Shown: positions 1 through 43,087 of the stretch, piece after piece
How positions within the stretch are numbered: the stretch's first letter is position 1
Layout: every line of letters starts with the position of its first letter
Virus record (IMG/VR): IMGVR_UViG_3300024289_000048
Span: 1 to 45,231 of that record
DNA from: a virus
Reading direction: 5' to 3' (one strand)
DNA: 45,231 nt
Program-made: the position numbers and the translations under genes
The notes under the pieces: generated by a model
What the model saw: only the letters and a program-made list of their open reading frames with translations
Told to the model about the DNA's origin: nothing
Databases searched by the model: none

Positions 1-3000
1 ATATCACCCACACTAACCGCAAGTATCCGCGCTGAATCACGAAGCGCAGTTTTGTACTTTTCGGATCCTGGTATATAACCGTGTGCCATGATTGCTTTCT
101 TCATGTGATCAAACTGAAGAAGTAGAACCATGTCATGAACGATGGCGTTGTAACGCTCGAACATTCCCTGGCCTGGAATGTGTTGCGTCCAACGTCCTTT
201 AAGGAACCATTCGTCGTTCGTTCCTAGTTCGTCAATGTCCATAAGCGTTGTCTTACAGTCATCGATAGTAGCGTTAGGATTAACGCGGCGTAGGTTATAC
301 AACTCAAGATCAAGAGCATCCTGTAGGCGCTCATCGATTGTGAACATAGTTAAAGGAAGCTGAGCTTCGCGTGCTTCCTCGTATACATCCATTGCACGCA
401 GTTCGTTGCCGATCTTGTGGAACACTTCGCGTCCAAACTTGCGAGTGCCATACGTCTTTCCATTGAACTCAAGTTGCATGTTAGGCGCGAAGAATCCACG
501 GAAGCCGGCGATCAAAGCCTTCATACCAACAGCTGGGTTCGTCAGGAGAATAAGTCCAGCCTGCAATGTTGTAAATGCAAAGTCAGCTGAAAGCACAAGG
601 CGGGTAATGTCATTGAACTGGTCAACAATGTTGCCCAGTACTTGATACTTTTCAGGCTTCTTGACTGGGTTAAATTTCTCTGGCATCGAAGGTCCGCGCA
701 TGTCAGAGTAGTCAACACGAATTGGCATAGGCGCCGGAGTCGCATCGTATGCCATGTCATCCGTAGAATCGACGCGCTCGTACATGACGGTCAATGGCTC
801 AGCAGTTCGTGTTACCTTGACCGATGTATCTTTCTTGGTCCATGACGCAACATTAAGTGCTGCATGAGAGTTACGTGGCACAGCGATGTTTTGCAAAGCG
901 TTGTCACCGCCAACACTGTGTTTCACATTAAGGAATACAATACCGTCGCGGTTCTTATGCTTAGCTAGTAACTTACTAACGGTACCAGCATCCATACCGC
1001 CACCGTTTAGATCAATGACCTGTGGGTTGTCCATACGGACATACTTCATCTTCTTGTTCTGGCCAGTTAGCCTATCAACACCAGATGGAAGTATGTATCC
1101 TTGAGCGGAACGCAACCAGATCGACGTTGGTGTGTCAGGTACAAAGCCTATCGTAACCAATGGTTTTCCAGTGCGTGGACGCAGAGCCGCTTCCTTGTAC
1201 GCGGTCGCATCTTTCAGTACTGTTCGCGCAACATCAAACTTTGTCTGCTTCATATCAAGCTTTAATGCCATTTGAACTGAAGCGTTTTTAGTATTGCCGT
1301 CTGCTGCAAAATCTACGATTCGCTTGATTGTTTTAGGCGTTTTCTCACCACGATAGAAGTCATCAAGTGCAATCGACAATGAATCCATATCGTCGTCAGT
1401 TACGACTGCTGATGACGCCATGTCCTCCATAATGGCCAACGCATCCTGGCCGGCCATATAGCGACGAATACTACTCAGGTATGCGGGTGGAACATCTCCT
1501 ATGGTCACATCAGGCCGGATATCCGCATTGGCTACCGATTCCACAAGTGGATGACCACCAGACCATTGCTTAAACTCTGGCGATTCGGTACGTGCATAAT
1601 GAGCAGCAGCTTGATTAGGCGACATACCCATGACCTTGGTCATCAAGCGGAATGCGTGAGATGAGTTGCCACGGTAATCACGAACAGCAGTTACCTTGCC
1701 ATTGTTACCAATCGTTATGCGGTCAGCCTTTGCTAGATCAACCATGCCACGCTTGGTCTGCGCCAATATATCTGGCTGCTGAATGAAAGTATCGGTTGCA
1801 GCAGCGTCATCGAATGTGTCAACACTGTCGAACATGAATTGGGACATTGGTATTACGGTATTTACATTTTCTTCACCTCCCCATTCCATTAAATGAGCTG
1901 CTGTCAGCACATACCTATTAATAGGCATTTTTGTATCTCGAAGAACGAGACCGGCGTTAACGGATAGTGCCTTTACCGTATTACTGACTGGTAACGGAAC
2001 TATAGTTCCGTCTTCTTTACGAAGCTTAGCATCACCATTACGACTTACGATAACCGTACCTTTTGGTACGTCGCTGCTACCTTTAACACGTTGATATGTA
2101 AATGAGTCGCCCTCCATACCTCTAGGTGCATAGGCAAAATCGCTACCTCGACCTTCTTTTGTGTTAAGCGTCCAAATGTTTGCAACAGCCTTATTGGCTT
2201 CGATACCAGATGCAACTAATCGTTGCATGTATGCACGGTGAACCTTGTTGTAGTCTCCATTAGGGACAAGTTGCGCGCTGAGAGTAACGGCCATTTTACC
2301 GATAGTTGTATGTAAGGAGAGTGCTGACGCAACTTCACCTACTGTAACAAGATTACGAAGATAACCTATAGATGCTTGATGAGCTGAAGTGTAATCACCA
2401 AATTCAGACAACTCGCGGAATGTCTGAAGCATATCTTTAATAGGTTCTCTAAATTTTTCAACACGCCGCTTATTATCTCCAAGTCCTTCAAGGAAATCGG
2501 TTATGTGTTTGTCCGTTAAAGATCCGTTGTAAAGAGCAACAAGTTGATCGCGAGTTACATCTGTACTCCTAACGTTGAATGCATTGTCATTAGCATATTC
2601 GGGAACAGAGTTAAACACCTCTGGATCTTTAATCATATTAAGGAGAGTTTCTCTAACTGTTCCATCCGTTTTAACCACCGATGACATATTAGACAGGAAC
2701 TTGTGAACAACAGGATGATTTATTCCGTTACGCAAATATTGGCTATTGTGTAAGAATGACGCAAGCTGTACTAGACCAGAGAACCCCTCATTGCGATACA
2801 TACGGCGAATAACTGTTATCGGTTGTACGCCTTCAAGCATCTCTGGTGTAACGTCGCGAACGAGTCCATCAATACTTGTTCGCATGATGTACGCCAAGTT
2901 TTCGACATTAGCCGTACTTAGCAGTGGGTCGTAAACACGGGTTGATGCAGATGGTTGTGCAATGCGCATTTTGAGGACACTGTCAAACATCTCACCATTT

Positions 3001-6000
3001 ACATCTGCATATTGCGTTGCAAAGTTGGTGTATGCATCTTTTGTTTCCTGGCTACGAATAATGCGTCCTAACGTATGGACGTTGATACCAGGACCAAAGC
3101 TCGGATGCTTTTCAATGATCTGTCGCCGGAAGTCAACACCAATACCAATAGGAGCAGTGTTTGATCCTGAAATAGAGAATATCTGTTGACTAGGATCGAT
3201 AAGACCAAAGTCTTTAAGTCTTGGAGGGTTTGAGAAAACAAACACGTTTTCGCGTGGGATACCCAATGACTTAGCAAGGTCAGAATACGCCTCAATCGTA
3301 GCATCGGACATATTGATGTCTTTGATTAGGAATATCGGGAAATCGTAATCACGCTTAGTTAATGGTTTATCCGACTCGTACGTGTTGTATGCTATTCGAC
3401 CGCGAGGCATCCATACGTCACCGGTGTCATCGTCACCAGTTCCATCTTCATCGTCTCCAGTGCCGTCTTCGTCACCGGTGTCGTCACCTGTACCGTCTCC
3501 GAAGTCATCTCCGGATCCGTCACCGTCTCCACCATCGTCAGGCCCACCTGTACCCGATTCATCAGCGGTACCATCGCCAGGCTCGGTGAAGCCCTCAAAC
3601 ATCTGTGGCTCGACAGCCTCAAGCCACTTCATGTTTTCGTCGTAGTAAGAACCGATGAACGAACTCAATGTATCCATCAAGTTAGCGTTCATACCATTGG
3701 TTAATCCACCGTATTCGATAACACTACTTATCGGAATCTCAAAGACGGAACGACCATCTGTAACGCTTACAAAACCAACGCGTGTACGGCTTTCAGGGTA
3801 GCGATCAAACTCTGCCTGATCTACTGTCGTAGCCTTCTTAGCAGTAACCCATCGCTTACTTCCGTTATGATTGATGTATAGGCCAGTTCCAGCGTAAATC
3901 TTTGCACCAGTGTATGGCGCACGCCATCGCACTGTGTAAGTACCATCAGGACCGCGCCGAATTGGTCTCTTACTCGCAATTGTTTGTATGACGCTATTCA
4001 GGTAACGACGAGTACCCTGATAAACCGTGTTGAGCGCCTGCGCTGGTTGTACCTGCTTTCGTACTCTAGTCCCATCACTTTGCAGTACCTCTTCGACTCG
4101 TCGTGGCGCCATACCGTTTTGGATATCAGCAACCATCATTGCCACTAATTGTTCTTCAATATGTGTAGGTAAGTTATCTATATCAGTAACTTCATTGATA
4201 CCTGCACGGCTTAGCTGGTTCACTAACTTGCGACGTGACGCAGAATCCATACCACGGATAAGCGCATGTACGACTTCATGGATACCAGTCAACTGATCAC
4301 GGGCAGCCAAACCAACGATGACATTCGATGACATACCAGTTTGTTTTGCACGCTTGAATATGAATCCGGTTGCTTCACCATCAAGTTTGGTGACATCATT
4401 GATAAAAGCAAACGATGCGAGTCGTTCTTTGTAGAACACGCGCATATAAGCAGCAACACTTTTGAGTACATCAGGATCCGTGTTAAACATTTCCCGATAA
4501 ACTTTTTCGTCAAGAAGGTTGCCTTCATCATCTCTGACTTCGACAACTGCTTCCCCTGGCCGACCAGATGTCATTAACGCAGCATGTGTATCTAACGCTA
4601 CACGTCCGCTTCCTTCGACTTGACGCATCGCCCAGGCTCTCGCAAAGTTATCGACTATACCTGTAAAGAAATAGGCACCATCGTTACTGAAATTGAATTG
4701 TTCAACCAATACAGTCTGTAACTGTCTGCGGTTCGCTACTTGGGTTGCGTCAGCTTCGACTACATCTCCACCGATGTCAAGTAGTACCTTCTCAATGACA
4801 CGATTATTAACCACGTCAGATGGAGCTTCGTCTATATTCGGCCGCTCTCGAATACGGCGGCGCGACCTTCCACGGGATCTACCGGCGTCCTCTGCATCAG
4901 CACGCGCAGCCTCAAGTTCACGTTTAAGTCTTTCAAGTTCGGCCCGTGCCGCTTGGATTTCAGCCAGGTAAGCTTCTTCTCGTTGCTTAGCCTCGTCCAT
5001 AGCCTTGTTCAACTTGTCTGTAAGTTCGGCTAAAGCAGCATCACTAATTTGTGTCGCCAACTGCAAGTTGGATGATCGTTCGTTCGCGTCAGTGATAGCC
5101 TTTGTCAGAGCCTCGATAAGGTCCTGCATCGATGTAAGATCAGTGCTTGTCTGTGGACGCCCATTCTCTATTATGCGTTGTAGACTTGCGATAGCCGCCT
5201 CGTATTGTGCCTTCTGGTCTAACAGTTCCCTGCGGAGATCGTCAGCGACTCTACGGGCTTCCTCACTGCTTGCCGCTGCCGCAGCAGCAGCTGCCTGCCC
5301 AAGTTCTGTACGAATCTTAGCCAGCTCTTCACGTAGAAGCGCCTGTTGTTCAGATGCACGACCTTGCTCCTCAGCTAACTTTTTCGTTAGTTCTTCGATG
5401 GCAAGTCTAGCTGCTTCCAGTTCTGCTGTCTTTGCTGCCTTTAATCGGTCAACCTCAATCTGCTGTCGTCGAAGTTCGCGGTTGGCTTCTTCTTGGATGC
5501 GACGTGCTTCCAATTGTTTATCGAGCATCTCACGTCGGAATTGGCGATCACGCTCACGTTCAGCCTCGCGCTTTGCTTCAGCCTCTTCACGCTCGCGTTT
5601 ACGAGCCTCTGCCTTATCGGCAAGTTCAGCTGCTCGGCGTGCCTTCTCTGCATCCTCTGCGGTGGCATCTGCAAGATGAGCTGTTACTACAAATGTTCGG
5701 TCACGAACAGCCTGGCCCGTAGCATATGCAACAGAGTACTGAATTGCTTTATTGACTGCTTCGCGACGATCTAGTGTTGACGCAGGTGTGTATACAGCAT
5801 CTGGTGTACCAGTTGCGTCAGGACTAGACATAGAGTTATAGAGATTGAAACTTCCGTCCGGATTACCTCGAAGCGCATACGTCGTACGATAGTCTCCAGT
5901 AACCTCACCTTTAGGGTTGAATTCTTGCAGGCGCAGTTGCAGAGAGACAGTACCGTTTTCGTTACGATCTATTGTTCCGTATACGTGCTTGTATCTGGTT

Positions 6001-8933
6001 CGGACGTTGAATGTTCGGGCTGAACTAAATTCTGTCGTAGCCTCAGTATCTGCGACGTCAGTATCAACTGACTCACGCATCGGTAGTTCATCTCTACCAA
6101 GGATTTCTGGATCACCTTCAACAGCGTCTTCATCCGCAGTTTCACCTTCTACGCCAGTAGTATCCTCAATAATCGGTGTTTCAACTTCGGCTTCTGGTTC
6201 AGCAGTGCCGAGTTCCGGGAACATATCAGTGAAGTCTTCTGTTTCCAACAGATTACGCAAAGCACTATTGACACGGCCCTTGGTTGCAGATGTTAGTTCA
6301 ATGACATCAACATCTTCAGTAGCACGCGATTCTACTGGCGTCATTTCTGGTGTTTCTGCTGTACCTTCGCCAACTTCAGCAGATGTACGCGCAGATACTG
6401 ATCCGACGCGGCCGTCACCGTCCACGTCTTCACCAATCATAGTTTCAGCTTCAGCTGGAGTAATGGGATTACCCAACTGGTCTGCGACAACCATATTGTT
6501 TTGAACAACAAAGGCAGCTTTACGTGGTTGATCAACTAGGCGGACTTTGTAACCACGGGGTGTTAGTTCTGTAATGATAGCGGTTTGCTGGCCAAACTCA
6601 GCGGTCATGACGTCTACAACATCGGCACGCTTGAACCTGCCATCTGCTGGCTCAAATCCCATAGCCTCTTCGACGTCGGCAGCAATCTCGGAACGAGCGG
6701 CTTCGATCGCCAGGTCTCTAGCCTTCTTATCGGTAATAGCCCGTGCATTATCGAACAGGTAACTCTTAGCGGACCGAGCGCGTGATACGGCTCTATTCTG
6801 TTCTGGTGTTAGTTCTACTACGTCAGCGGTGTTCGTATCTGGGTCATAGAACTTCCATTGCATGCGACCGACACGCTCTTGTGGTGCTAGTTCACCAAGA
6901 TATGTTGGGAAGTATTCGTCACGTATGTTTCCAAGGACTTCTGGTTTTGCACCAGATGTATCCTCAATGTTGATTTGACCTTCGTTTACACGGATGTGTG
7001 TGCCGTCTGGCAAACCAACGATATACATACCCTGACGTGGGTCACCAACTGCTTTGATTACGCGACCAGGAATTGGTTCCATACCTTCTTCAAGGTAGAT
7101 ATTCTGCTTGTAAACGTATCGGTCGGCGTTATCAAAGTTATCCGGATTGAACTGCGATGGTCTTTCGTTTGGCGCAACACCTTGAGCAGCCATCGTATCG
7201 ACCAGCTTTTCGGCAATCTTCTTGTTAGAGATTGCGCTAACCGGGACAACCATGATCTTACTGCGGCCATCAGGTGTTACATCACGCACAACTACGCCGG
7301 CGTCTCTCGAGATACCAATTACGTTTCGCGTTACACCAGATCGCCTATCACTGTAGGCAATGACTGGCTGTCGTTGGAACAGTGCAGTAATCGTCTGCAA
7401 TTGTTCTGCTGCGTATTGTGAGCGACGGCCTTCCAAAGGTAACGCCATATCTTCAAAGATAGTCGCTTTGCGATTCTTACGATCGAAGACAGCATACTCA
7501 GCACCAGCAAGTATCGGTCTACCTGCGGCGTCCACACCAGGGCTATATCGACCACCAAGGTTCAGGCGCTGTAGTCCCTCATCACCGTAAGGCGTGATTT
7601 CTGACTCTATTGGACGAGCTGGTCTACCTAATTCACGGGACTGTCGAAGCTCTGTAAGCTTATTCAATGCATAGGCAGGATCTGTAATCTTATTCGCAAA
7701 TTCAAACGACGCCTTGCCAAGTGGAGTTTCGCCACCAAGCAATGCACCAATCGCGCCATTGAATAGAATCTCCTGCGGAGACAAACCAAAGCCACCCTTA
7801 GCTTTTGCCGCTTCACTCTGCTGGTACGATTCGAACATACCTTGCGCGGCTTCGATGGAGCGGTCACCAATGTCGCTGACAGTTGCTTGTACCTGTGTAT
7901 TCTTTAGTGCTTTGGTCACACCACGACGGGATATCTGACGTGCGGCCTCACGGATACCGACGCCAGGGATTTTTAGGCTAGGCGCAAAGAATGTAAGGTC
8001 TCCGGCAAGTGAACCAGCTTGTGACATCAGTGGGTAATCTGCTGCTAATTGACCTCGATAGTCTTCCTTTGCTTTAAGAGCAGCTGACCCTAACATTAGA
8101 CCAAAAGCTTTGTCATTGATAGCAGAGTTAATGTCTGTACCAATCGTGCCGCCGCCAGCAGCTCCAAGTAAACCAGCCATAAGGTACGCGGCACCCTTGT
8201 ATTTCTTAGGTGCTAACGCAGCTGCTAATCCACCGGCTCCACGGAAGCCCAGTGTGCCTCCAAAGATGGTTCCTGGCATAGATGCTATGCGTTCTTGGTA
8301 AGGTGTACCAAACGCTTCGCCAGCCGCGATGAGAGGGTTGTTACTTTGTTGGTAGGCCAGACTTGGGTCACCACTTTGTCTTCCTTCAACAAAAGCCTGA
8401 ATGGGTTTGTAAATACCAGAGATCACGCCAACGCCTGCGTCTGGAAGTTGCTGGAAGCCCGTCTGTAAATCCCGGAATGTATATGGCTGTTCATTCCATC
8501 GCTGCACGTCGTCGCGCGTATACTTTAACTTATCAAGATAAGCTTCTTCGTCCTCGCGAGTCTTCTGTATCTGTTGTCCAAAGTCTTCTTTGGCAGACTG
8601 CCTTAGTCCATAGATAGCTTCTGGTGATAGGTCTGGACGATACTCGTTATCAGGCGTAAAGTACTGTCGCTTATCTTGGTCATTGACAAGTTCAATAGCA
8701 CGACTTGCTTTGAACTTAGCTAATGTAACTTTGTCCTCGCGTGAAACTAAGCCTTCCTTGAACAGCCTGTCTACATTGCGGGTAAATGATTTGGAAAATA
8801 AAACGTCATCGTATTGACTACCGTTAGCAATATACTCTCGCGCACCTGCTTTAGTAGTTAAGTCCGGGGAATCCCGCAGAGCCTTAATAGTCGGAGCAAT
8901 TGATTGATATTGTCTAAGTTGACGTTCATTCAT
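1..8933 (-). CDS. Giant polyvalent virion-type protein (3' end outside window)
   Basis: This reading frame stays open from an ATG at 8933 to the window edge (about 2,977 codons), so its C-terminus is missing. A glycine-rich hydrophobic stretch (about residues 218-275) could insert in a membrane. Glu/Pro/Thr-rich sequence follows (about 850-945), then a long charged Ala/Glu/Arg/Lys coiled coil (about 1080-1360). Near 1552-1556 is HEVVH, followed about 40 residues later by an IEEQLVA segment, the pattern of zincin metallopeptidases in phage polyvalent proteins. An Asp/Gly repeat linker lies at about 1788-1842. Around 2662 the stretch RDGIVFLNV resembles the end of ADP-ribosyltransferase-like polyvalent domains. 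The last 200 visible residues resemble the large polyvalent-protein-associated helical region. Such proteins are typically carried in the capsid and ejected with DNA. It lies last in the visible late operon, after two internal virion-type proteins. The domain calls are by eye; the open frame is certain. Confidence 0.85.
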   Translation of the reverse strand, partial: MNERQLRQYQSIAPTIKALRDSPDLTTKAGAREYIANGSQYDDVLFSKSFTRNVDRLFKEGLVSREDKVTLAKFKASRAIELVNDQDKRQYFTPDNEYRPDLSPEAIYGLRQSAKEDFGQQIQKTREDEEAYLDKLKYTRDDVQRWNEQPYTFRDLQTGFQQLPDAGVGVISGIYKPIQAFVEGRQSGDPSLAYQQSNNPLIAAGEAFGTPYQERIASMPGTIFGGTLGFRGAGGLAAALAPKKYKGAAYLMAGLLGAAGGGTIGTDINSAINDKAFGLMLGSAALKAKEDYRGQLAADYPLMSQAGSLAGDLTFFAPSLKIPGVGIREAARQISRRGVTKALKNTQVQATVSDIGDRSIEAAQGMFESYQQSEAAKAKGGFGLSPQEILFNGAIGALLGGETPLGKASFEFANKITDPAYALNKLTELRQSRELGRPARPIESEITPYGDEGLQRLNLGGRYSPGVDAAGRPILAGAEYAVFDRKNRKATIFEDMALPLEGRRSQYAAEQLQTITALFQRQPVIAYSDRRSGVTRNVIGISRDAGVVVRDVTPDGRSKIMVVPVSAISNKKIAEKLVDTMAAQGVAPNERPSQFNPDNFDNADRYVYKQNIYLEEGMEPIPGRVIKAVGDPRQGMYIVGLPDGTHIRVNEGQINIEDTSGAKPEVLGNIRDEYFPTYLGELAPQERVGRMQWKFYDPDTNTADVVELTPEQNRAVSRARSAKSYLFDNARAITDKKARDLAIEAARSEIAADVEEAMGFEPADGRFKRADVVDVMTAEFGQQTAIITELTPRGYKVRLVDQPRKAAFVVQNNMVVADQLGNPITPAEAETMIGEDVDGDGRVGSVSARTSAEVGEGTAETPEMTPVESRATEDVDVIELTSATKGRVNSALRNLLETEDFTDMFPELGTAEPEAEVETPIIEDTTGVEGETADEDAVEGDPEILGRDELPMRESVDTDVADTEATTEFSSARTFNVRTRYKHVYGTIDRNENGTVSLQLRLQEFNPKGEVTGDYRTTYALRGNPDGSFNLYNSMSSPDATGTPDAVYTPASTLDRREAVNKAIQYSVAYATGQAVRDRTFVVTAHLADATAEDAEKARRAAELADKAEARKREREEAEAKREAERERDRQFRREMLDKQLEARRIQEEANRELRRQQIEVDRLKAAKTAELEAARLAIEELTKKLAEEQGRASEQQALLREELAKIRTELGQAAAAAAAASSEEARRVADDLRRELLDQKAQYEAAIASLQRIIENGRPQTSTDLTSMQDLIEALTKAITDANERSSNLQLATQISDAALAELTDKLNKAMDEAKQREEAYLAEIQAARAELERLKRELEAARADAEDAGRSRGRSRRRIRERPNIDEAPSDVVNNRVIEKVLLDIGGDVVEADATQVANRRQLQTVLVEQFNFSNDGAYFFTGIVDNFARAWAMRQVEGSGRVALDTHAALMTSGRPGEAVVEVRDDEGNLLDEKVYREMFNTDPDVLKSVAAYMRVFYKERLASFAFINDVTKLDGEATGFIFKRAKQTGMSSNVIVGLAARDQLTGIHEVVHALIRGMDSASRRKLVNQLSRAGINEVTDIDNLPTHIEEQLVAMMVADIQNGMAPRRVEEVLQSDGTRVRKQVQPAQALNTVYQGTRRYLNSVIQTIASKRPIRRGPDGTYTVRWRAPYTGAKIYAGTGLYINHNGSKRWVTAKKATTVDQAEFDRYPESRTRVGFVSVTDGRSVFEIPISSVIEYGGLTNGMNANLMDTLSSFIGSYYDENMKWLEAVEPQMFEGFTEPGDGTADESGTGGPDDGGDGDGSGDDFGDGTGDDTGDEDGTGDDEDGTGDDDTGDVWMPRGRIAYNTYESDKPLTKRDYDFPIFLIKDINMSDATIEAYSDLAKSLGIPRENVFVFSNPPRLKDFGLIDPSQQIFSISGSNTAPIGIGVDFRRQIIEKHPSFGPGINVHTLGRIIRSQETKDAYTNFATQYADVNGEMFDSVLKMRIAQPSASTRVYDPLLSTANVENLAYIMRTSIDGLVRDVTPEMLEGVQPITVIRRMYRNEGFSGLVQLASFLHNSQYLRNGINHPVVHKFLSNMSSVVKTDGTVRETLLNMIKDPEVFNSVPEYANDNAFNVRSTDVTRDQLVALYNGSLTDKHITDFLEGLGDNKRRVEKFREPIKDMLQTFRELSEFGDYTSAHQASIGYLRNLVTVGEVASALSLHTTIGKMAVTLSAQLVPNGDYNKVHRAYMQRLVASGIEANKAVANIWTLNTKEGRGSDFAYAPRGMEGDSFTYQRVKGSSDVPKGTVIVSRNGDAKLRKEDGTIVPLPVSNTVKALSVNAGLVLRDTKMPINRYVLTAAHLMEWGGEENVNTVIPMSQFMFDSVDTFDDAAATDTFIQQPDILAQTKRGMVDLAKADRITIGNNGKVTAVRDYRGNSSHAFRLMTKVMGMSPNQAAAHYARTESPEFKQWSGGHPLVESVANADIRPDVTIGDVPPAYLSSIRRYMAGQDALAIMEDMASSAVVTDDDMDSLSIALDDFYRGEKTPKTIKRIVDFAADGNTKNASVQMALKLDMKQTKFDVARTVLKDATAYKEAALRPRTGKPLVTIGFVPDTPTSIWLRSAQGYILPSGVDRLTGQNKKMKYVRMDNPQVIDLNGGGMDAGTVSKLLAKHKNRDGIVFLNVKHSVGGDNALQNIAVPRNSHAALNVASWTKKDTSVKVTRTAEPLTVMYERVDSTDDMAYDATPAPMPIRVDYSDMRGPSMPEKFNPVKKPEKYQVLGNIVDQFNDITRLVLSADFAFTTLQAGLILLTNPAVGMKALIAGFRGFFAPNMQLEFNGKTYGTRKFGREVFHKIGNELRAMDVYEEAREAQLPLTMFTIDERLQDALDLELYNLRRVNPNATIDDCKTTLMDIDELGTNDEWFLKGRWTQHIPGQGMFERYNAIVHDMVLLLQFDHMKKAIMAHGYIPGSEKYKTALRDSARILAVSVGD

Positions 8934-37681: not shown

Positions 37682-38039
37682 CAAAACCTCCAGGTTGGGG
37701 TCGATTCAACGGTTGCGCTGGCGCGTCACCAGCAGTCTTGTTGCTATCCAGTGGGTACAACTGATCGCACACTACTTCAAACCCACGGCGCTTAGAACCA
37801 TCCTCGGCTTGCCATTCGCGTGTGCGAATCTTGCCGATGACGCCAATCTTACGACCTTTAGCAAGGTACTTAGACGCAAAGTCAGCAGTCGATTGAAATG
37901 CCGTAAGGTCGATGAAGTCGGATGGTTGATCCTTGCCACGATCAACAGCCAGGCGCATCTTAGCAATGCCCTTGCCGTCACTCATGGTCTTGTATTCGAC
38001 GTCTGCGACCAAGCGGCCGGCTAGTACTACATTATTCAT
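37656..38039 (-). CDS. ssb: Single-stranded DNA-binding protein
   Basis: A 127-aa SSB with the OB-fold order of bacterial-type proteins: MNNVVLAGRLVADVEYK, then AKMRLAVDRG, FIDLTAFQSTADFASKYLAKGRKIGVIGKI and REWQAEDGSKRRGFEVVCDQL. A flexible Pro/Gln linker leads to the acidic C-terminal tip DDIEDPFA, which recruits replication partners. It coats single strands during replication and recombination. Its start overlaps the stop of the small gene at 38036 by four bases (ATGA). Confidence 0.92.
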   Translation of the reverse strand: MNNVVLAGRLVADVEYKTMSDGKGIAKMRLAVDRGKDQPSDFIDLTAFQSTADFASKYLAKGRKIGVIGKIRTREWQAEDGSKRRGFEVVCDQLYPLDSNKTAGDAPAQPLNRPQPGGFDDIEDPFA

Positions 38040-38305
38040 TCTTCACCATCCAAAACAGACTTACTGATTACAGCAGAAAATGAGCTAATAACGTCATCTG
38101 CCAATTCAAGCAGGACGCGATTTGGGATCTTATAACTAGTGGTCAAACCAAGCAGCAGATTCCATGCCTTTACTGGACTGAGTTGTGTTGCGCATGTGAT
38201 TCCGTCAGTGCCGACGTACTCTACATCGTATTCTGCCAGGCCATTGCGGTGGCTTAGGCGGATAGTGACGTCACTATCGCGCCCGGTCTTACAAATCGTG
38301 ATCAT
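38036..38305 (-). CDS. Small protein of unknown function, first gene of the SSB operon
   Basis: An 89-aa protein with an N-terminal beta pattern (MITICKTGRDSDVTIRLSH), then AEYDVEYVGTDGITCATQLSPVKAWNLLLGLTTSYKIP, and a helical C-terminus (LADDVISSFSAVISK). No named family was recognised. A ribosome-binding AAAGGA lies before the ATG, and a promoter-like region with a TATCAT box and a GCAAGTAT half-site (38363-38370) is upstream. As first gene of the unit it is probably regulated together with ssb. Confidence 0.55.
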   Translation of the reverse strand: MITICKTGRDSDVTIRLSHRNGLAEYDVEYVGTDGITCATQLSPVKAWNLLLGLTTSYKIPNRVLLELADDVISSFSAVISKSVLDGEE

Positions 38306-38372
38306 TTGGTATCCTTTAACAGTAAAGTGTAATCACCTTACGTCAACATGATACCACGCCCAGCAAGTATTA
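38306..38372 (-). promoter_or_regulatory. Promoter of the SSB operon
   Basis: On the left strand TGG-TATCAT (38356-38348) is an extended -10-like box, with the half-site GCAAGTAT (38363-38370) nine bases upstream of it in this direction. A ribosome-binding AAAGGA precedes the ATG at 38305. Confidence 0.45.
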
Positions 38373-38909
38373 CTAGAAGTTTACGCGTAAGATCCCGCCA
38401 AACTGTCCAAGCTCGTTCCATTCACGCATTTTGCGGTAAACGCCATCTCCGTCACGGTTGACTTCTGTAACATCTGATGGTTCTGGGCCAGTGTTACCCT
38501 CAATCGTCCATACACCGTTCTCGAATGACTGCGTCACAATACCGATGTGTGCAATGCGACATTTGGTGCGACTGTAGAACAATGCTAGGTCACCTCTGCG
38601 CGCCGGCGTGTGGTCCAAGGCAAGCTGCGCTCTTGGTATCCAAAGATCGTTTGCTTTTGCATAACGCTCCCAGTCCGGTGTAAATCCAGATCGTGGGAAC
38701 CCAGAGACGTAAGTTGTGTTTAATTCTGTGGCAGCAATCTTCATGCACGCGCGAACAAAAGCTGCGCAGTATGGTGATCCTGGAGTCAGGGCAGGCACAG
38801 CCATCTTTTGAAACATCTCTACCTCGTCGCCGCGGTTTTCACCTTCTTCTCGGACGTGTAGATATCTCTTTGCTACTTCAACTGTTTTCAGAGCTATTTG
38901 CCGACTCAT
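38373..38909 (-). CDS. CHAP-type endolysin (cysteine amidase/peptidase)
   Basis: A 178-aa putative endolysin. The catalytic Cys lies in GSPYCAAFVRACM (Cys48), followed by a PDWERYAKANDLWIPRAQLAL stretch. The catalytic His is in ARRGDLALFYSRTKCRIAHIGIV (His121), and VWTIEGNTGPEPSD supplies the third polar residue (Glu137 or Asn139). This order is that of CHAP/NlpC-P60-like amidases that cut cell-wall peptides at the end of infection. There is no signal peptide, so it should need a holin; the holin-like genes sit at 23057-23624. The start overlaps the upstream DUF2829-like gene by 32 bases. Confidence 0.78.
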   Translation of the reverse strand: MSRQIALKTVEVAKRYLHVREEGENRGDEVEMFQKMAVPALTPGSPYCAAFVRACMKIAATELNTTYVSGFPRSGFTPDWERYAKANDLWIPRAQLALDHTPARRGDLALFYSRTKCRIAHIGIVTQSFENGVWTIEGNTGPEPSDVTEVNRDGDGVYRKMREWNELGQFGGILRVNF

Positions 38910-39225
38910 TGATATCCTCTTGTGTAAAGATTTCTGGCCAGACTTGCCAATCCGTCGCCGTTAAGTCATCAAGTGAGATTATCCAATCCCACGATTCAAA
39001 CAATGGTAAGTCCGGCGCACCCGGGCTAATAGAGATAATGTTTTCCTCAGGAACTCCACGAATACATATCCCCTGATTCAACTCCAACTCAAAATCCTCA
39101 TCAGACACAAATAATCCGCTATGCAGGTTGTTGCCGTTGAATATGGAGTAAAGATAGCCATCATCCGACATCCTGTGACAAAACCTGCCAGCAATTAAGT
39201 ATGGCCGGATCTCTTCAAAGGTCAT
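38878..39225 (-). CDS. DUF2829/Tad2-like protein
   Basis: A 115-aa protein from the ATG at 39225, which overlaps the stop of the upstream gene in an ATGA junction. It reads MTFEEIRPYLIAGRFCHR at the start and WDWIISLDDLTATDWQVWPE near the end. This gives the MTFxEx...G and (S/T)xxDLxAxDW frame of the DUF2829 family. The DUF2829 protein Tad2 sequesters the gcADPR signal of the Thoeris defence system. A Ser-rich tail follows. It lacks the usual RxxW at the N-terminal end, so it may be a divergent member. It sits between a small unknown gene and the endolysin. The family call is moderate. Confidence 0.55.
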   Translation of the reverse strand: MTFEEIRPYLIAGRFCHRMSDDGYLYSIFNGNNLHSGLFVSDEDFELELNQGICIRGVPEENIISISPGAPDLPLFESWDWIISLDDLTATDWQVWPEIFTQEDINESANSSENS

Positions 39226-39392
39226 GGGGTGCGTTTGCGAAGCTCCTTGCCGCATGCTGCAAACAATTGTTTGAGTTGTGTCGTAGACATTAGTTCGACT
39301 TCGCGATCCAGATCCAAACCTAGCATGTATACCGACAGTGAAGTGACTTCTCGATCTACCAGTTTCAATTTCTTCCGTAACCATTCACGCAA
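39222..39392 (-). CDS. Short protein of unknown function
   Basis: A 56-aa protein from the ATG at 39392, supported by an excellent AGGAGG ribosome-binding site eight bases upstream. It is basic and helical (MLREWLRKKLKLVDREV, ending TTQLKQLFAACGKELRKRTP). No family was recognised. It is the first gene of a three-gene leftward unit with the DUF2829-like protein and endolysin. The 270-base intergenic region upstream holds a 6-bp inverted repeat (ACCGGGTAACCCGGT, 39478-39492). Confidence 0.55.
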   Translation of the reverse strand: MREWLRKKLKLVDREVTSLSVYMLGLDLDREVELMSTTQLKQLFAACGKELRKRTP

Positions 39393-39629
39393 CATTATCC
39401 ACCTCCTACTGGCCATTCTACAACAAACAGGGACCACGTATACCTACGCAGTCCCTGCCATTTGTGTTGTTGTTGATACCGGGTAACCCGGTTTCCAATA
39501 AGCTCACTCAGTTACGATGTGGCAATTGATTGTACCTATGAGTGCGATAATATATGCGTCGAAACGCGATGAAAACTTAAAAGTCCACCCATCATGCCAA
39601 AACCTATGACAATTGAGTCGAGCGAATCT
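39393..39629. promoter_or_regulatory. Intergenic control region upstream of the endolysin unit
   Basis: This region holds CAGGGAC/GTCCCTG arms (about 39428-39457), the dyad ACCGGGTAACCCGGT (39478-39492) and a ribosome-binding site for the 56-aa gene. A + strand 30-codon frame from 39517 is followed by the hairpin at 39630, but it is too short to call. A small rightward RNA is possible. Confidence 0.4.
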
Positions 39630-39656
39630 AAAGCCCCTTCACAGAGGGGCTTTTCT
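39630..39656. terminator. Terminator-like hairpin at the end of the SNase unit
   Basis: An 8-bp stem (AAAGCCCC/GGGGCTTT, 39630-39637 and 39646-39653). The T-rich flank is better on the + strand (TTTTCTAATT) than on the left strand (TTTAGATT), so direction is uncertain. It could serve the leftward SNase unit or an unseen rightward transcript. Confidence 0.6.
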
Positions 39657-39658
39657 AA

Positions 39659-40006
39659 TTAGCGTTTACCGCCTTCGTAATCAACACCGTGACCCGCTAG
39701 TTTGAGCGCGTCGGCAAGGCTCTGACCATCAGAAACAACTGTTCCTAGAATACGTCCGTACTTGTCTTCGCGGTGGTTTTTCACGCTGATTACAACGTCT
39801 GACTTCTTGCTAGTGACCCAATTCCACGTAAACTGCTTGGCTGTTACTCCAGCCTCAGTATCCTTCTCAGGGCAGTTAATATGCTCAAGGCGAATCTTCT
39901 TACCCGCAAGTATTACGCCGAAGCCCAGGTCAAGATCAGCCTTAAGCGTGTCGCCATCTACAACAGATATATTCTTCAATGAGTATTGATATAGAGTTGA
40001 TTTCAT
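39659..40006 (-). CDS. SNase-type thermonuclease
   Basis: A 115-aa nuclease of the staphylococcal nuclease fold. The pattern VVDGDT (Asp17, Asp19), KIRLEHINCPE (Arg39), TEAG with a Glu near position 51, HREDKYGRILGTV (Arg85) and DGQSLADALKLAG matches the Ca2+-dependent active site residues (Asp21/Asp40, Arg35, Glu43, Arg87 in the reference enzyme). It cleaves DNA or RNA non-specifically. It has no signal peptide, so it probably acts inside the cell, perhaps on host DNA. It overlaps the DUF5872 gene by four bases (ATGA). Confidence 0.83.
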   Translation of the reverse strand: MKSTLYQYSLKNISVVDGDTLKADLDLGFGVILAGKKIRLEHINCPEKDTEAGVTAKQFTWNWVTSKKSDVVISVKNHREDKYGRILGTVVSDGQSLADALKLAGHGVDYEGGKR

Positions 40007-40389
40007 CGGTGCCTTGCCGCCTTACGTGCAATGGATTTTGGCTGTGCTACGAACTGTTTGCCTGCGCGATTACCGGCAGCTTTAGCTCGGTTAGTAGCAG
40101 CTACTTCACCTTTAGACAATGAACCCCACGCCTTGTCTGGTAGGTAGCGTTTCTTTCCTTCACTAGGCGTTCCATCGGATGTGCGCCACTTCTGATCAGT
40201 CCATTTTGCTAAACTGTTGTCAGCCTTCTTTGGACCTACGTAGCCGCCACCAGACTTCTTGTATTGCTGTGTAGCAAGCTGCGCTTTGCGAGCAGACCAC
40301 TCACCAGGATCGCCACCCTTTGTACCAGCTTTAACACTTGCGACGATACGTTTCCACTTAGCGGGATCACGCTTTACAGCACTAGACAT
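40003..40389 (-). CDS. DUF5872-like protein
   Basis: A 128-aa strongly basic protein. It matches a well-marked family: KWKRIVASVKAGTKGGDPGEWSARKAQLATQQYKKSGGGY, NSLAKWTDQKWRTSDGTPS, KKRYLPDKAW and GKQFVAQPKSIARKAARHR follow the DUF5872 pattern position by position. The function is unknown; size and charge suggest DNA or RNA binding. The ATG lies five bases after a TATACT box with an upstream TGC (extended -10 type), so the mRNA is probably leaderless. It is co-transcribed with the SNase gene. Confidence 0.75.
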   Translation of the reverse strand: MSSAVKRDPAKWKRIVASVKAGTKGGDPGEWSARKAQLATQQYKKSGGGYVGPKKADNSLAKWTDQKWRTSDGTPSEGKKRYLPDKAWGSLSKGEVAATNRAKAAGNRAGKQFVAQPKSIARKAARHR

Positions 40390-40403
40390 GTCTCAGTATA
40401 GCA
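40390..40403 (-). promoter_or_regulatory. Leaderless promoter of the DUF5872-SNase unit
   Basis: On the left strand TGC-TATACT (the TATACT is 40400-40395) is an extended -10 box that ends five bases before the ATG at 40389. No other ribosome-binding site is seen, which fits a leaderless mRNA. Confidence 0.5.
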
Positions 40404-40418
40404 AAAGCCATAAACAGC

Positions 40419-40447
40419 AAAAAGACCAGCATGGCGGACTGGTCTTT
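40419..40447 (-). terminator. Rho-independent terminator after the HTH/Tad2-like operon
   Basis: A 9-bp stem (AAAGACCAG/CTGGTCTTT, 40421-40429 and 40439-40447) with a 9-base loop. The left strand continues with five T (positions 423-419), a typical terminator for the 40499-42350 operon before the next promoter. Confidence 0.85.
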
Positions 40448-40498
40448 CTGTTTGCAGAGTTTGTGTGTGTCGGGACTGACCGGGTTTCTGGCCTTTCC

Positions 40499-40675
40499 TT
40501 ATTGATCTTTCGATCGATCAGATTCTACCATCTTGTTGACATCAACAATATGGTCGTACACGTCCTTGCGCATAAACATAACTGCGTCCCCTTTAATAAG
40601 TGATGCGTCTTTTAACTTATTAGTAAAGGGTTTAGCAAAGGCAACTAGCCTAGTTCGTTTCTGGCCATTTTTCAT
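40499..40675 (-). CDS. 58-aa protein, easily overlooked
   Basis: A 58-aa basic protein that overlaps the upstream gene by 26 bases. It starts MKNGQKRTRLVAFAKPF, then KLKDASLIKGDAVMFMRKDVYDHIVDVNKMVES, and ends RSKDQ. A purine-rich AAGGGA lies nine bases upstream of the ATG as a plausible ribosome-binding site, and a good terminator (40419-40447) follows 50 bases beyond its stop. This placement at the end of the operon supports its reality. No family was recognised. Confidence 0.5.
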   Translation of the reverse strand: MKNGQKRTRLVAFAKPFTNKLKDASLIKGDAVMFMRKDVYDHIVDVNKMVESDRSKDQ

Positions 40676-40943
40676 TAGTGCTATCCCTTGTTAATACTGT
40701 TCGCTTTGCAGTGTTAAGTTTGTGACGATGCAGTGCGATGTGTACTGCCTCGATCATCTCATCAAACATGGGGTTGTTTATTTTCCCAGATACAACAACT
40801 TCACCATTGTCTTCCATTACAAACTTAACAAACGGCTCATCTGGATTAGCGTTAAAGTAAGTGACCAGCATACCAGCAGCTTCGTGTAGATCAGGATCGA
40901 TGTCCTCGTCAGTTTTGCACACAGGCACAATTTTAAAATTCAT
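40650..40943 (-). CDS. Small acidic protein of unknown function
   Basis: A 97-aa protein with strand-helix patterns (MNFKIVPVCKTDEDI, VKFVMEDNGEVVVSGKI, MFDEMIEAVHIALHRHK). No motif or family was recognised. The start overlaps the stop of the upstream DUF2829-like gene in an ATGA junction. Its C-terminal codons overlap the 58-aa gene. It probably belongs to the same regulatory/anti-defence operon. Confidence 0.5.
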   Translation of the reverse strand: MNFKIVPVCKTDEDIDPDLHEAAGMLVTYFNANPDEPFVKFVMEDNGEVVVSGKINNPMFDEMIEAVHIALHRHKLNTAKRTVLTRDSTNEKWPETN

Positions 40944-41128
40944 TCCATTACCTCCCAGTCATCATGTAATAGGTCATCTATTGTTGGCTTACCATGCAGT
41001 TTCTCGTCTTTGTAGCGACATATGATGACCCTCGAATCTACAACTATTGCGTACGTTCCTGGCAGCCATCTAGCCTGGCGCACGCGCTTGCCGTCACGTA
41101 ATGCCTGTAGGGCTTCAATACCTGTCAT
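40940..41128 (-). CDS. DUF2829/Tad2-like short protein
   Basis: A 62-aa protein, a compact version of the family: TGIEALQALRDGKRVRQARWLPGTYAIVV opens it and PTIDDLLHDDWEVME closes it. The ALxxLxxGxxVxxxxW start and (T/S)xxDLLxxDWEV end are the two hallmarks of DUF2829. The Thoeris inhibitor Tad2 belongs to this family. It overlaps the HTH-fused neighbour by 14 bases. The family call is good; whether it sequesters a nucleotide signal is unknown. Confidence 0.65.
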   Translation of the reverse strand: MTGIEALQALRDGKRVRQARWLPGTYAIVVDSRVIICRYKDEKLHGKPTIDDLLHDDWEVME

Positions 41129-41522
41129 TCACAGCCTCCCAAGCAAGTACAACCCAGTCCTTTGCCAATAAGTCTTCCAGGCTAAGATCCAGCGTATATG
41201 TGATGCATTCCATTATTCCTTCTGGACAACTGTAAGCTCGGACAAACCATCTGTTTTCAATGTCGTAGTAGTACCAACACTGCCAACATTTACGTGTAAA
41301 CGGCAATCCAGTCTTGATCAACTCCATGCAACTATCTAAGGAAGAACGCTTGAGCTTAACCTCACCGTTACGCATAGCTGACTGGATCCTATATATGTGT
41401 GTTGTACTGACACTCCATTTACGAGCAACCGTTTTAACGTTTACGCCAGCCGTAAGCTCATCCTGAATCCCTTTAATGTCTTTCTCGCTTAACTTCCTAC
41501 GGTTATCGGTACTAGTGGCCAT
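41115..41522 (-). CDS. HTH fused to a DUF2829/Tad2-like domain
   Basis: A 135-aa protein from the ATG at 41522, which has a GAGGAA ribosome-binding site six bases upstream and is preferred over a GTG five codons earlier. Residues 9-55 (RRKLSEKDIKGIQDEL, then NVKTVARKWSVSTTHIYRIQ) form a resolvase-like helix-turn-helix. Residues 61-135 (SLDSCMELIKTGLPFTRKCW, then LDLSLEDLLAKDWVV) show the start and end signatures of DUF2829. This would couple a DNA-binding domain to a Tad2-like domain. It lies next to a stand-alone Tad2-like gene and an XRE-type regulator. A regulatory or sensing role is possible. Confidence 0.6.
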   Translation of the reverse strand: MATSTDNRRKLSEKDIKGIQDELTAGVNVKTVARKWSVSTTHIYRIQSAMRNGEVKLKRSSLDSCMELIKTGLPFTRKCWQCWYYYDIENRWFVRAYSCPEGIMECITYTLDLSLEDLLAKDWVVLAWEAVNDRY

Positions 41523-41841
41523 AGTATTCCTCGTCACCGCGAAGCTTAATTACAAAAGCCTTGTAGGCTTCCATAATCGTTTCATGATCGCCATCGAACT
41601 CATCAATCAGATACTTGGGGAACCGACCAACATAGAAACACAGGATCCAGTCATCGACTAGCAAAGCTTCCGCCAGATCGTCGATGTAAGGCTCATAGCT
41701 GCGGCGCCCATGCTCGATACAGTTCATCATCTGTGGAGAAATGGATCCGTCGCCATCCAGGCGACGAACCCTACGCGCGAGCGCACGCTGTGACATGCCA
41801 AGGGCCTCACGGCGCTGCTTGATGTACTCATGCCCCTTCAT
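41512..41841 (-). CDS. XRE-family HTH regulator
   Basis: A 109-aa protein. Residues 4-55 are a lambda-repressor-type HTH (IKQRREALGMSQRALARRVRRL, then ISPQMMNCIEHGRRSYEP), with the usual SQxxLAxxV and I...E.GRR positions. The remainder (VDDWILCFYVGRFPKYLIDE, then ETIMEAYKAFVIKLRG) resembles the C-terminal half of small XRE regulators in phages and mobile elements. It is a candidate binder of the recurring GCARGTA half-sites, though this is only an idea. It overlaps the neighbouring genes by 11-14 bases. Confidence 0.75.
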   Translation of the reverse strand: MKGHEYIKQRREALGMSQRALARRVRRLDGDGSISPQMMNCIEHGRRSYEPYIDDLAEALLVDDWILCFYVGRFPKYLIDEFDGDHETIMEAYKAFVIKLRGDEEYYGH

Positions 41842-42088
41842 CTTTTACCTCCACTCCCCAGATAGGCGATTTGCCCATCGGGTGCCATTTACCAAGGACC
41901 CAGCAAGGATCGCAAAACGTATCAGCCTCAATCTCAATCGTCTCAAGCAAATGCTCAGACGGACCGTTATGCATAACAAACATCAACTGTAATTCCGAAT
42001 ACCGCAGGTATTCATCATCATTCCAACAATCGAGGCGTGCAGGGTACCCATGCATAATCCACTCCAACGCCTTACTGATCGTTACCAT
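41828..42088 (-). CDS. Small protein with a DUF2829-like start
   Basis: An 86-aa protein. MVTISKALEWIMHGYPARLDCWNDDEYLRYS looks like the ALxxxxxGxxxxRxxW opening of DUF2829. The C-terminal half (CDPCWVLGKWHPMGKSPIWG) lacks the DLLAxDW ending, so it is a partial or unrelated match. Two Cys and several Trp in the C-terminal half suggest a compact fold. It is probably translated with its neighbours, since its ends overlap both. Confidence 0.45.
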   Translation of the reverse strand: MVTISKALEWIMHGYPARLDCWNDDEYLRYSELQLMFVMHNGPSEHLLETIEIEADTFCDPCWVLGKWHPMGKSPIWGVEVKDEGA

Positions 42089-42350
42089 TGCGTACCTTTA
42101 TCCCTAGCTTATGAAGCAAACCAACCTTCTCCTCTGGCCGAAATTCAGAGTAATCACCAAGCGCTTCAAGCGCATCGATAGCTTTGTGGATAGCCCACGT
42201 AACGTCACGCGTGTCCTTCAAGAACGACGCCGACTCATACAAATCATCTACAACAATGTCCCTGCGCAGCTTCTCGTACGCGCTCTGGCACGCAAGCATA
42301 GACGCCAACACACTACGATACTGCGACCACGCAGCTTCTCTCTTATTCAT
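42072..42350 (-). CDS. Helical protein of unknown function, first gene of the operon
   Basis: A 92-aa helical protein (REAAWSQYRSVLASMLACQSAYEKLRRDIV, then VTWAIHKAIDALEALGDYSEF). No family was recognised. It starts the leftward operon that runs to the 58-aa gene. It is preceded by a GGAGG ribosome-binding site and, 18 bases upstream of the ATG, a TATACT box with TGG directly in front (extended -10). The GCAAGTAT half-site overlaps that box. This makes it a likely regulated promoter. Confidence 0.5.
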   Translation of the reverse strand: MNKREAAWSQYRSVLASMLACQSAYEKLRRDIVVDDLYESASFLKDTRDVTWAIHKAIDALEALGDYSEFRPEEKVGLLHKLGIKVRNGNDQ

Positions 42351-42377
42351 AACAAACCTCCACCCGCAAGTATACCA
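42351..42377 (-). promoter_or_regulatory. Promoter of the HTH/Tad2-like operon
   Basis: On the left strand TGG-TATACT (42377-42369) is an extended -10 box, followed by a GGAGG ribosome-binding site and the ATG 18 bases downstream. A GCAAGTAT half-site on the + strand (42366-42373) overlaps the box, so a repressor could block it. Confidence 0.5.
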
Positions 42378-42391
42378 TGCAATCGCGCATA

Positions 42392-42943
42392 CTACGCGAC
42401 TTCATTACCCCATACGTCCCAGCCAGGGTACGGTCTACGCGCGAACAACTCGATCTTACGCATGCCCGGATACAACTGATCTATACGCTCATGCACAGCA
42501 TCAGGCTTCCTGCTATGCTCCATTCGCGGCGCCATAACTACCTGTCTGACGCTCTCGTCAGACAGCTTCAAAGGCCTACCAGACTTGCAAGGGCTACCAA
42601 CCAACACAAGCTCCGTCGTAGGCTTTACAACGCTAGGACGGACGCCCTGCGCGCCCACAGGCGTACCATCCTGCTTCGTCTTCACCCACACAAAGCCAAC
42701 CCCCCTATACGCTAAGCCCCAGCCTCGCAATAAGTCCAGCGCAGCGTCCAGACGCGGACCAGTAGCCCACATAAACACCACGCTGCGCGAATGCAACAGC
42801 TGCTGGACAGGCAACGCCAACAGATCAGCGTCGCTCATCGTTGGGTAGAACTTCGCGGCGGCGCCCCACTTATCCTGGCTACCGCTATACGACCACGGGG
42901 GGTCACACAACACTACGTCATACTGAACGGAAGGGAAATCCAT
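42392..42943 (-). CDS. MT-A70-type DNA adenine N6-methyltransferase
   Basis: A 183-aa methyltransferase. The catalytic DPPW tetrapeptide lies at DVVLCDPPWSYSGSQD near the start, then SRSVVFMWATGP, LLRGWGLAYRGVGFVWVKTKQDGT, STTELVLVGSPCKSG-like PTTELVLVGSP, and HSRKPDAVHERIDQLYPG, the usual MT-A70 order. It transfers a methyl group to adenine N6, perhaps to hide phage DNA from restriction or to regulate genes. The ATG at 42943 has GAGG just upstream and is preferred over a GTG two codons earlier. A TGT-TATAAC promoter-like box lies at 42958-42966. Confidence 0.88.
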   Translation of the reverse strand: MDFPSVQYDVVLCDPPWSYSGSQDKWGAAAKFYPTMSDADLLALPVQQLLHSRSVVFMWATGPRLDAALDLLRGWGLAYRGVGFVWVKTKQDGTPVGAQGVRPSVVKPTTELVLVGSPCKSGRPLKLSDESVRQVVMAPRMEHSRKPDAVHERIDQLYPGMRKIELFARRPYPGWDVWGNEVA

Positions 42944-42966
42944 ATACACCTCGGTACGTTATAACA
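42944..42966 (-). promoter_or_regulatory. Promoter-like box of the MT-A70 gene
   Basis: On the left strand TGT-TATAAC (42966-42958) resembles an extended -10 box, 14 bases before the ATG at 42943, with GAGG between them. No -35 element is clear. Confidence 0.4.
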
Positions 42967-43087
42967 TGGCTTCTACGGCGGGAGAAAGTCAATTTTGAGG
43001 AGATGTTCCGTAGGCGTGGGGATCGTAAGAAAAAAATAATAAGGGGGCGGGGGCTTGCCATACCCCCCTGCCACACACGGTGTGTGA

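Follow-up and report, generated by a model that had tools for sequence, protein, structure and literature searches.

Diverged Tad2-like genes in an uncultivated virus record and the fusion of one of them to a helix-turn-helix domain

Tad2-like frames of the window

The stretch of DNA analysed here (the window) is the IMG/VR virus record IMGVR_UViG_3300024289_000048, 45,231 bases long, whose minus strand carries several small frames resembling the Tad2-like family (PF11195, formerly DUF2829 according to its Pfam record). Three of them belong to one operon, namely a stand-alone protein of 62 amino acids (40940-41128), a longer frame with a Tad2-like C-terminus (41115-41522) and a stand-alone protein of 86 amino acids (41828-42088), while a fourth, recorded from 38878 onward, lies outside it. 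The first-pass annotation had reported DUF2829 hallmarks in at least three of these proteins (38878, 40940 and the C-terminus of 41115), a similar start only in that at 41828, and had proposed a profile search to decide on the family.

Two profiles were used: PF11195 itself, with its gathering cut-off of 25 bits, and an independent profile made from 10 stand-alone Tad2-like proteins of other contigs, which contains no rows from the window and no fusion rows, and for which the best of 3,200 shuffles scored 8.6 bits. Searching the whole record with PF11195 at E ≤ 10 returned two places. Among the window proteins only that of 62 amino acids exceeds the Pfam cut-off (27.9 bits); the C-terminus of the 41115-41522 frame scores 13.6 bits, the product of the 38878 frame 14.5 bits, and the 86-amino-acid protein has no Pfam match. 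The independent profile assigns 56.4 bits to the 62-amino-acid protein, 31.7 bits to the 86-amino-acid protein (across residues 3-71) and 24.5 bits to the 41115-41522 frame; for comparison, SPO1 Tad2 obtains 23.2 bits. Set against the shuffle maximum, these scores led us to reject chance similarity for the three proteins. On profile evidence the Tad2-like gene cluster is real, with three of the four frames well supported and the fourth weakly. The fusion and the 86-amino-acid protein are Tad2-like homologues as judged by a profile of their relatives, not members at the Pfam cut-off. The family call and the hallmarks are thus upheld for 40940 and 41115, whereas the frame at 38878 (11.2 bits) is a suggestive candidate; for the protein at 41828 the family call holds too, as it is homologous along most of its length rather than at its start only.

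Profile matches also indicate that the 41115-41522 frame joins a helix-turn-helix (HTH) domain to the Tad2-like domain, a feature unnoticed in the earlier annotation. This frame, recorded with 140 amino acids, probably begins at ATG 41522, which gives a protein of 135 amino acids with the HTH at about residues 8-54 and the Tad2-like domain at about 60-130; the gene overlaps that of the 62-amino-acid protein. All eight members of an alignment comprising the window fusion and 7 homologues (40-59% identical) match HTH_7, HTH_23 and PF11195 at E ≤ 0.1, the best PF11195 value being E 3.4e-4. In the AlphaFold2 (AF2) model of the fusion, the HTH block (residues 11-50) has a predicted local distance difference test score (pLDDT) of 79-93, and the blocks from residue 61 onward follow the order helix, three strands, helix at pLDDT 31-58. 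The top rows of a VIA structure comparison of this model are mostly HTH DNA-binding proteins, with Z-scores of 4.2 and below.

Solved relatives were sought in the PDB with profile A2, built from 16 domains, 3 of them from the window. At 33.6-21.9 bits it matches 8kbi, 8v3e, 9eib, AcrIIA7 (9kzr), SPO1 gp34.65 (8wje, 8sme) and SptTad2 (8wjd); its eighth and last match is unrelated (E 0.64). The entry 8kbi, deposited as 'Inhibitor of Type II CRISPR-Cas system', is presumably HgmTad2. Used alone, the 62-amino-acid sequence gives four matches, all Tad2 (E 0.02-0.14). Because the A2 matches include both Tad2 chains and AcrIIA7, the family holds sponges that sequester bacterial immune alarm signals as well as an anti-CRISPR protein. 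With the Tad2 sponges (SPO1 gp34.65, ModTad2, SptTad2 and HgmTad2) the window proteins share the domain family, including nearly invariant G, W and DW positions. They differ from these sponges in being shorter, diverged, several per phage and in one case HTH-fused. Most solved Tad2 chains, at 88-104 residues, are longer than the window proteins (62 amino acids, 86 amino acids and a domain of about 70 amino acids in the fusion), so it would be unsafe to take the ligand pockets as conserved. In known Tad2 the pockets lie between the protomers of a tetramer, and an insertion located between strands 2 and 5 serves to bind cyclic dinucleotides (PMC12043709). The 62-amino-acid protein would offer little space for it.

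Recurrence and domain swapping

To place the fusion among other viruses, we collected loci (designated L; stretches of 4-10 kb, against 45 kb for the window) using fusion queries. The fusion counts are therefore cases and not a frequency, while the company of other Tad2-like genes was not selected for. A fusion was scored when the Tad2-like domain started after residue 45, and the HTH was checked on 19 representatives. The scan for the window type of fusion gave 12 viral loci, three of which are near copies of the window. A scan for a second type ('RW'), with a ceiling of 80 loci per scan, gave 72 viral loci with a fusion in 70, or 81 of 83 when the window and ten others are added; the 70 fusions collapse to 19 at 85% identity, and among these representatives HTH_23 is matched in 18 and PF11195 in 13 at E ≤ 0.1. 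Stretches with two or more Tad2-like genes make up 70 of the 72 RW-scan loci, 80 of the total of 83 and 18 of the 19 non-redundant representatives, and some loci hold 5-6 diverged Tad2-like genes within one stretch. The fusion stands directly beside a Tad2-like gene in 58 of 81 cases (60 when the rule is relaxed so that the window counts too). Profile A2 finds 21 records with 1-7 match places each, the window having 3, although some places in G007 and G009 are pieces of one gene. Judged by these matches, HTH-Tad2 fusions are common in uncultivated phages.

Among 50,697 isolate phage records, tblastn gave no match at E ≤ 0.01 to the window-type fusion, the RW-type fusion (in two forms) or the 86-amino-acid-type fusion; likewise, the 62-amino-acid protein was unmatched at E ≤ 0.01 and the 86-amino-acid protein at 1. 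For rough orientation, a search with SPO1 Tad2 hits 393 places spread over 388 isolate records, a comparison that is not like-for-like and in which a single query misses diverged copies. A further architecture may occur in L009, where a 182-amino-acid protein (4689-5237) with a typical Tad2-like C-terminal half is a possible two-domain member; the N-terminal half has counterparts encoded on their own in L012 (4449-4763) and L015 (5906-6232), which score 10-11 bits as Tad2-like.

The relationships among 57 domains, 13 of them fused and 44 stand-alone, were examined with a tree over 69 columns, in which 20 of 54 inner branches are starred and 22 open, the bootstrap being not settled. The three window domains fall in three different starred sets, so we regard the genes as diverged paralogues and reject a recent tandem duplication. 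The fused domains are likewise spread over three starred sets, each of which includes unfused members: the set of the window fusion (100/100) holds 8 fused domains and 1 alone, the RW-type set (98/91) 3 fused and 2 alone, and the set of the 86-amino-acid type (99/82) 2 fused and 3 alone. In this last set the window protein is grouped with the HTH-fused domains of L076 and L084, and its C-terminal extension is common to L042 and L045. By comparison, the 62-amino-acid protein belongs to the MTGIEAL clade, in which all 26 tree rows are unfused. Explaining the fused and unfused states on this tree takes 5 changes, of which starred branches force at least 3; because three changes may amount to a single gain plus two losses, the tree does not fix how often fusion arose independently.

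Exchange of domains is seen directly in L076: its domain of the window-fusion type is unfused, and its domain of the 86-amino-acid type carries an HTH. A single HTH module (39.9-52.1 bits, against a shuffle maximum of 8.3 bits in 2,200) occurs on the window-fusion type, on the 86-amino-acid type and on a DUF7249-like domain of L094; the RW-type HTH was not detected as the same module (1.4 and -0.4 bits). The stand-alone HTH of G001 scores 10.3 bits, and we do not claim it as this module; that of G002 (7.5 bits) is below the shuffle maximum. HTH and Tad2-like domains are thus mixed and matched, and the window-type HTH is not exclusive to Tad2.

The leader upstream of the operon

The operon is headed by a conserved element on the minus strand (42970-43012), which ends 26 bases before ATG 42943 and consists of C(A/G)GAnn(A/G)TC, 14-15 bases and an 18-bp imperfect inverted repeat (42970-42987). 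Six diverged relatives, whose operons begin with different genes, carry the same element at the operon head. One inner position of the repeat varies: it is paired in L007 (A-T) and in L061 and L062 (C-G), and unpaired in the window, L029, L006 and L067. A pattern scan of viral contigs located the leader in 15, one exact copy in each; 12 of these have Tad2-like genes and 11 the fusion, and in one leader-bearing contig (G001) the HTH and Tad2-like genes are separate. The element is a leader of this operon type, and the HTH-Tad2 protein might bind it.

Interpretation of the operon

The reading that we tentatively favour is that of an anti-defence operon, made of sponge-like Tad2-like proteins together with an HTH-Tad2 regulator and organised like AcrIIA15, an anti-CRISPR that represses itself. 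The minus-strand operon below 43012 would then be an anti-defence module derived from one fold. Its stand-alone Tad2-like proteins (62 and 86 amino acids, and perhaps the 115-amino-acid protein encoded elsewhere) would be sponge-like inhibitors binding host immune signals or proteins, whereas the 135-amino-acid protein would be a regulator, its HTH recognising an operator that most likely sits at the operon head. The Tad2-like domain of this regulator would allow it to assemble, alone or with the stand-alone paralogues, and the operon would thereby control its own output; HTH-Tad2 may also bind ligand itself. An anti-defence role is suggested because the solved relatives are Tad2 proteins and AcrIIA7. 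We favour this reading because profile A2 retrieves these structures, because HTH and Tad2-like domains coincide in 8/8 window-type fusions, and because nearly all RW-scan loci hold a further Tad2-like gene although they were selected for the fusion only. The repeated fusion and separation on the tree, the conserved inverted repeat at the operon head and the AcrIIA15 precedent point in the same direction. In AcrIIA15, dimers of the N-terminal HTH (residues 1-56) bind inverted repeats that lie upstream of the AcrIIA15 gene, and the C-terminal domain blocks Cas9 (PMC10901769). The window fusion resembles it in that its N-terminal HTH is about as large, its C-terminal domain belongs by profile to an anti-defence family, and an inverted repeat precedes the operon. 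Unlike in AcrIIA15, the C-terminal domain is unrelated, the repeat occurs also in contigs without Tad2-like genes, and both DNA binding and inhibition by the window fusion are predicted.

Several observations weigh against this reading. The leader lacks a visible Tad2-like gene in 3 of the 15 contigs (G024, G027 and G028) and was not found in the scanned stretches of L060, L063 and L065, which carry the fusion; a private operator of HTH-Tad2 is therefore not upheld. In record G028, which bears the leader, L094:1492-2001 carries the window-type HTH on a DUF7249-like domain (23.4 bits, cut-off 27). The AF2 confidence is low in the Tad2 part of the fusion (pLDDT 31-58), too poor for a comparison of Tad2 folds, and no Tad2 chain appears in the VIA list of this model, which does not exclude the fold. 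Moreover, the operon contains a second candidate DNA binder, an Xre-like HTH protein of 109 amino acids encoded between the 86-amino-acid gene and the fusion (41512-41841, minus strand; HTH_31 24.1 bits, cut-off 27; phrog_3 repressor E 2.4e-5), which could be the operon's regulator. Finally, the sponge and repressor roles of the window proteins are predictions.

Alternatively, the Tad2-like domain could be an assembly scaffold only, with HTH-Tad2 and its paralogues acting as ordinary early regulatory or accessory proteins devoid of anti-defence activity. We consider this conceivable but rather doubtful. The short window proteins may lack pocket loops, the same HTH is swapped onto the DUF7249-like domain, and weak matches connect PHROG family 643 ('transcriptional regulator') with the C-termini of the 62-amino-acid and 140-amino-acid frames; yet every solved relative that the profile retrieves bears the name of an anti-defence protein, and expansion to 5-6 diverged genes per stretch would fit an arms race better. 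The first-pass annotation had instead suggested that the copies might bind different signals, a view in which each would be an independent sponge and the HTH incidental. The position of the window domains in separate starred sets agrees with this, as does the variety of known Tad2 ligands, gcADPR or His-ADPR in some proteins (PMC13299392) and cyclic dinucleotides in others (PMC12043709). Nevertheless, an HTH fused with three Tad2-like clades, and through different HTH modules, is hard to call incidental, and we hold this view to be unlikely. It is very improbable that the proteins are Cas9 inhibitors like AcrIIA7: this protein carries the same domain, DUF2829 is reported in 23 proteins around AcrIIA7 homologues (PMC6739104), and A2 finds 9kzr at 30.8 bits; but with Tad2 chains at 21.9-33.6 bits the window proteins are no closer to AcrIIA7 than to the sponges. 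More speculative, and decidedly unlikely, is that HTH-Tad2 acts as a one-component sensor, in which binding of a nucleotide alarm produced during infection would move or release the HTH on DNA and raise the sponge operon only after host immunity fires, the switch having evolved several times from a counter-defence fold.

The presence of several DUF2829 genes in one phage is already on record for SpaA1, where two are in tandem (PMC3398947), as is DUF2829 near AcrIIA7 homologues (PMC6739104). SpaA1 has 3 match places in our SPO1 Tad2 search of isolate phages, and the table rows of its description list DUF2829 proteins of 80-88 amino acids and mention no HTH fusion (PMC3398947). Nor do the titles and abstract openings listed by our Tad2/DUF2829 literature searches, which covered few subscription journals and not bioRxiv, describe an HTH-Tad2 fusion. 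Published Tad2 work, in the parts available, treats Tad2 as a single sponge protein, while these uncultivated phages have several copies of the Tad2-like domain and have it linked to DNA-binding modules time and again. This hints that a fold with which phages disarm bacteria may also have given them gene switches, and raises the question of whether anti-defence genes are regulated by sensing host immune signals. The loci also supply many diverged Tad2-like proteins for ligand screens.

Genomic setting

The operon opens with an MT-A70 methyltransferase gene (42392-42943, minus strand; PF05063, 103.7 bits), followed by that of a 92-amino-acid protein with no assigned function and no Pfam match above the cut-off (42072-42350, minus strand). 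After the 62-amino-acid gene comes that of a 97-amino-acid protein, also with no assigned function (40650-40943, minus strand), related genes of which follow Tad2-like genes in L029 and L084. Downstream of the operon, a terminator-like hairpin of 13 pairs with a T run (40418-40450, minus strand) lies after a 58-amino-acid frame. PADLOC, run on 9 window proteins, reported nothing beyond methyltransferase models and one weak HTH model, and a promoter scan found 4 against a shuffle mean of 5.8.

Outside the operon, the 38878 frame was probably mis-started at 39384, the true start being ATG 39225, which gives a protein of 115 amino acids (38878-39225, minus strand) overlapping the endolysin gene. 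This start is favoured because it overlaps the stop of a 57-amino-acid frame (39222-39395) and because it is also where the L022 and L023 homologues start. Start and end motifs are Tad2-like and in the correct order; the PF11195 match spans 18 C-terminal residues, and hhalign gives a probability of 48.5% over 22 residues. Its relatives comprise three near-identical proteins and two at about 80% identity only, and its AF2 model (mean pLDDT 42.9) is too low in confidence for fold comparison. The 115-amino-acid protein may be a diverged Tad2-like member, which these sequence features suggest. The neighbouring 57-amino-acid frame (minus strand) ends in LKxLFxxxGKELRKR, a C-terminus that recurs in small frames near the Tad2-like operons of L006, L007, L022, L084 and L087.

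The minus strand of the record further encodes portal, terminase large subunit and major head protein, and the plus strand dUTPase and ThyX; no tRNA was found in the window. Peptide-pattern scans for the host, with one genome per species, detected relatives of neither the fusion nor the terminase. Isolate-phage DNA matches positions 38000-43000 in only one stretch each of Methylophilales phage MEP402 and Roseobacter phage CRP-9, both marine isolates. This similarity overlaps a 128-amino-acid gene (40003-40389, minus strand) that matches phrog_14910 and phrog_17747. At the other end, the left 9 kb are occupied by a single open frame of 2,977 amino acids (3-8933, minus strand), which is cut off by the left end of the record.

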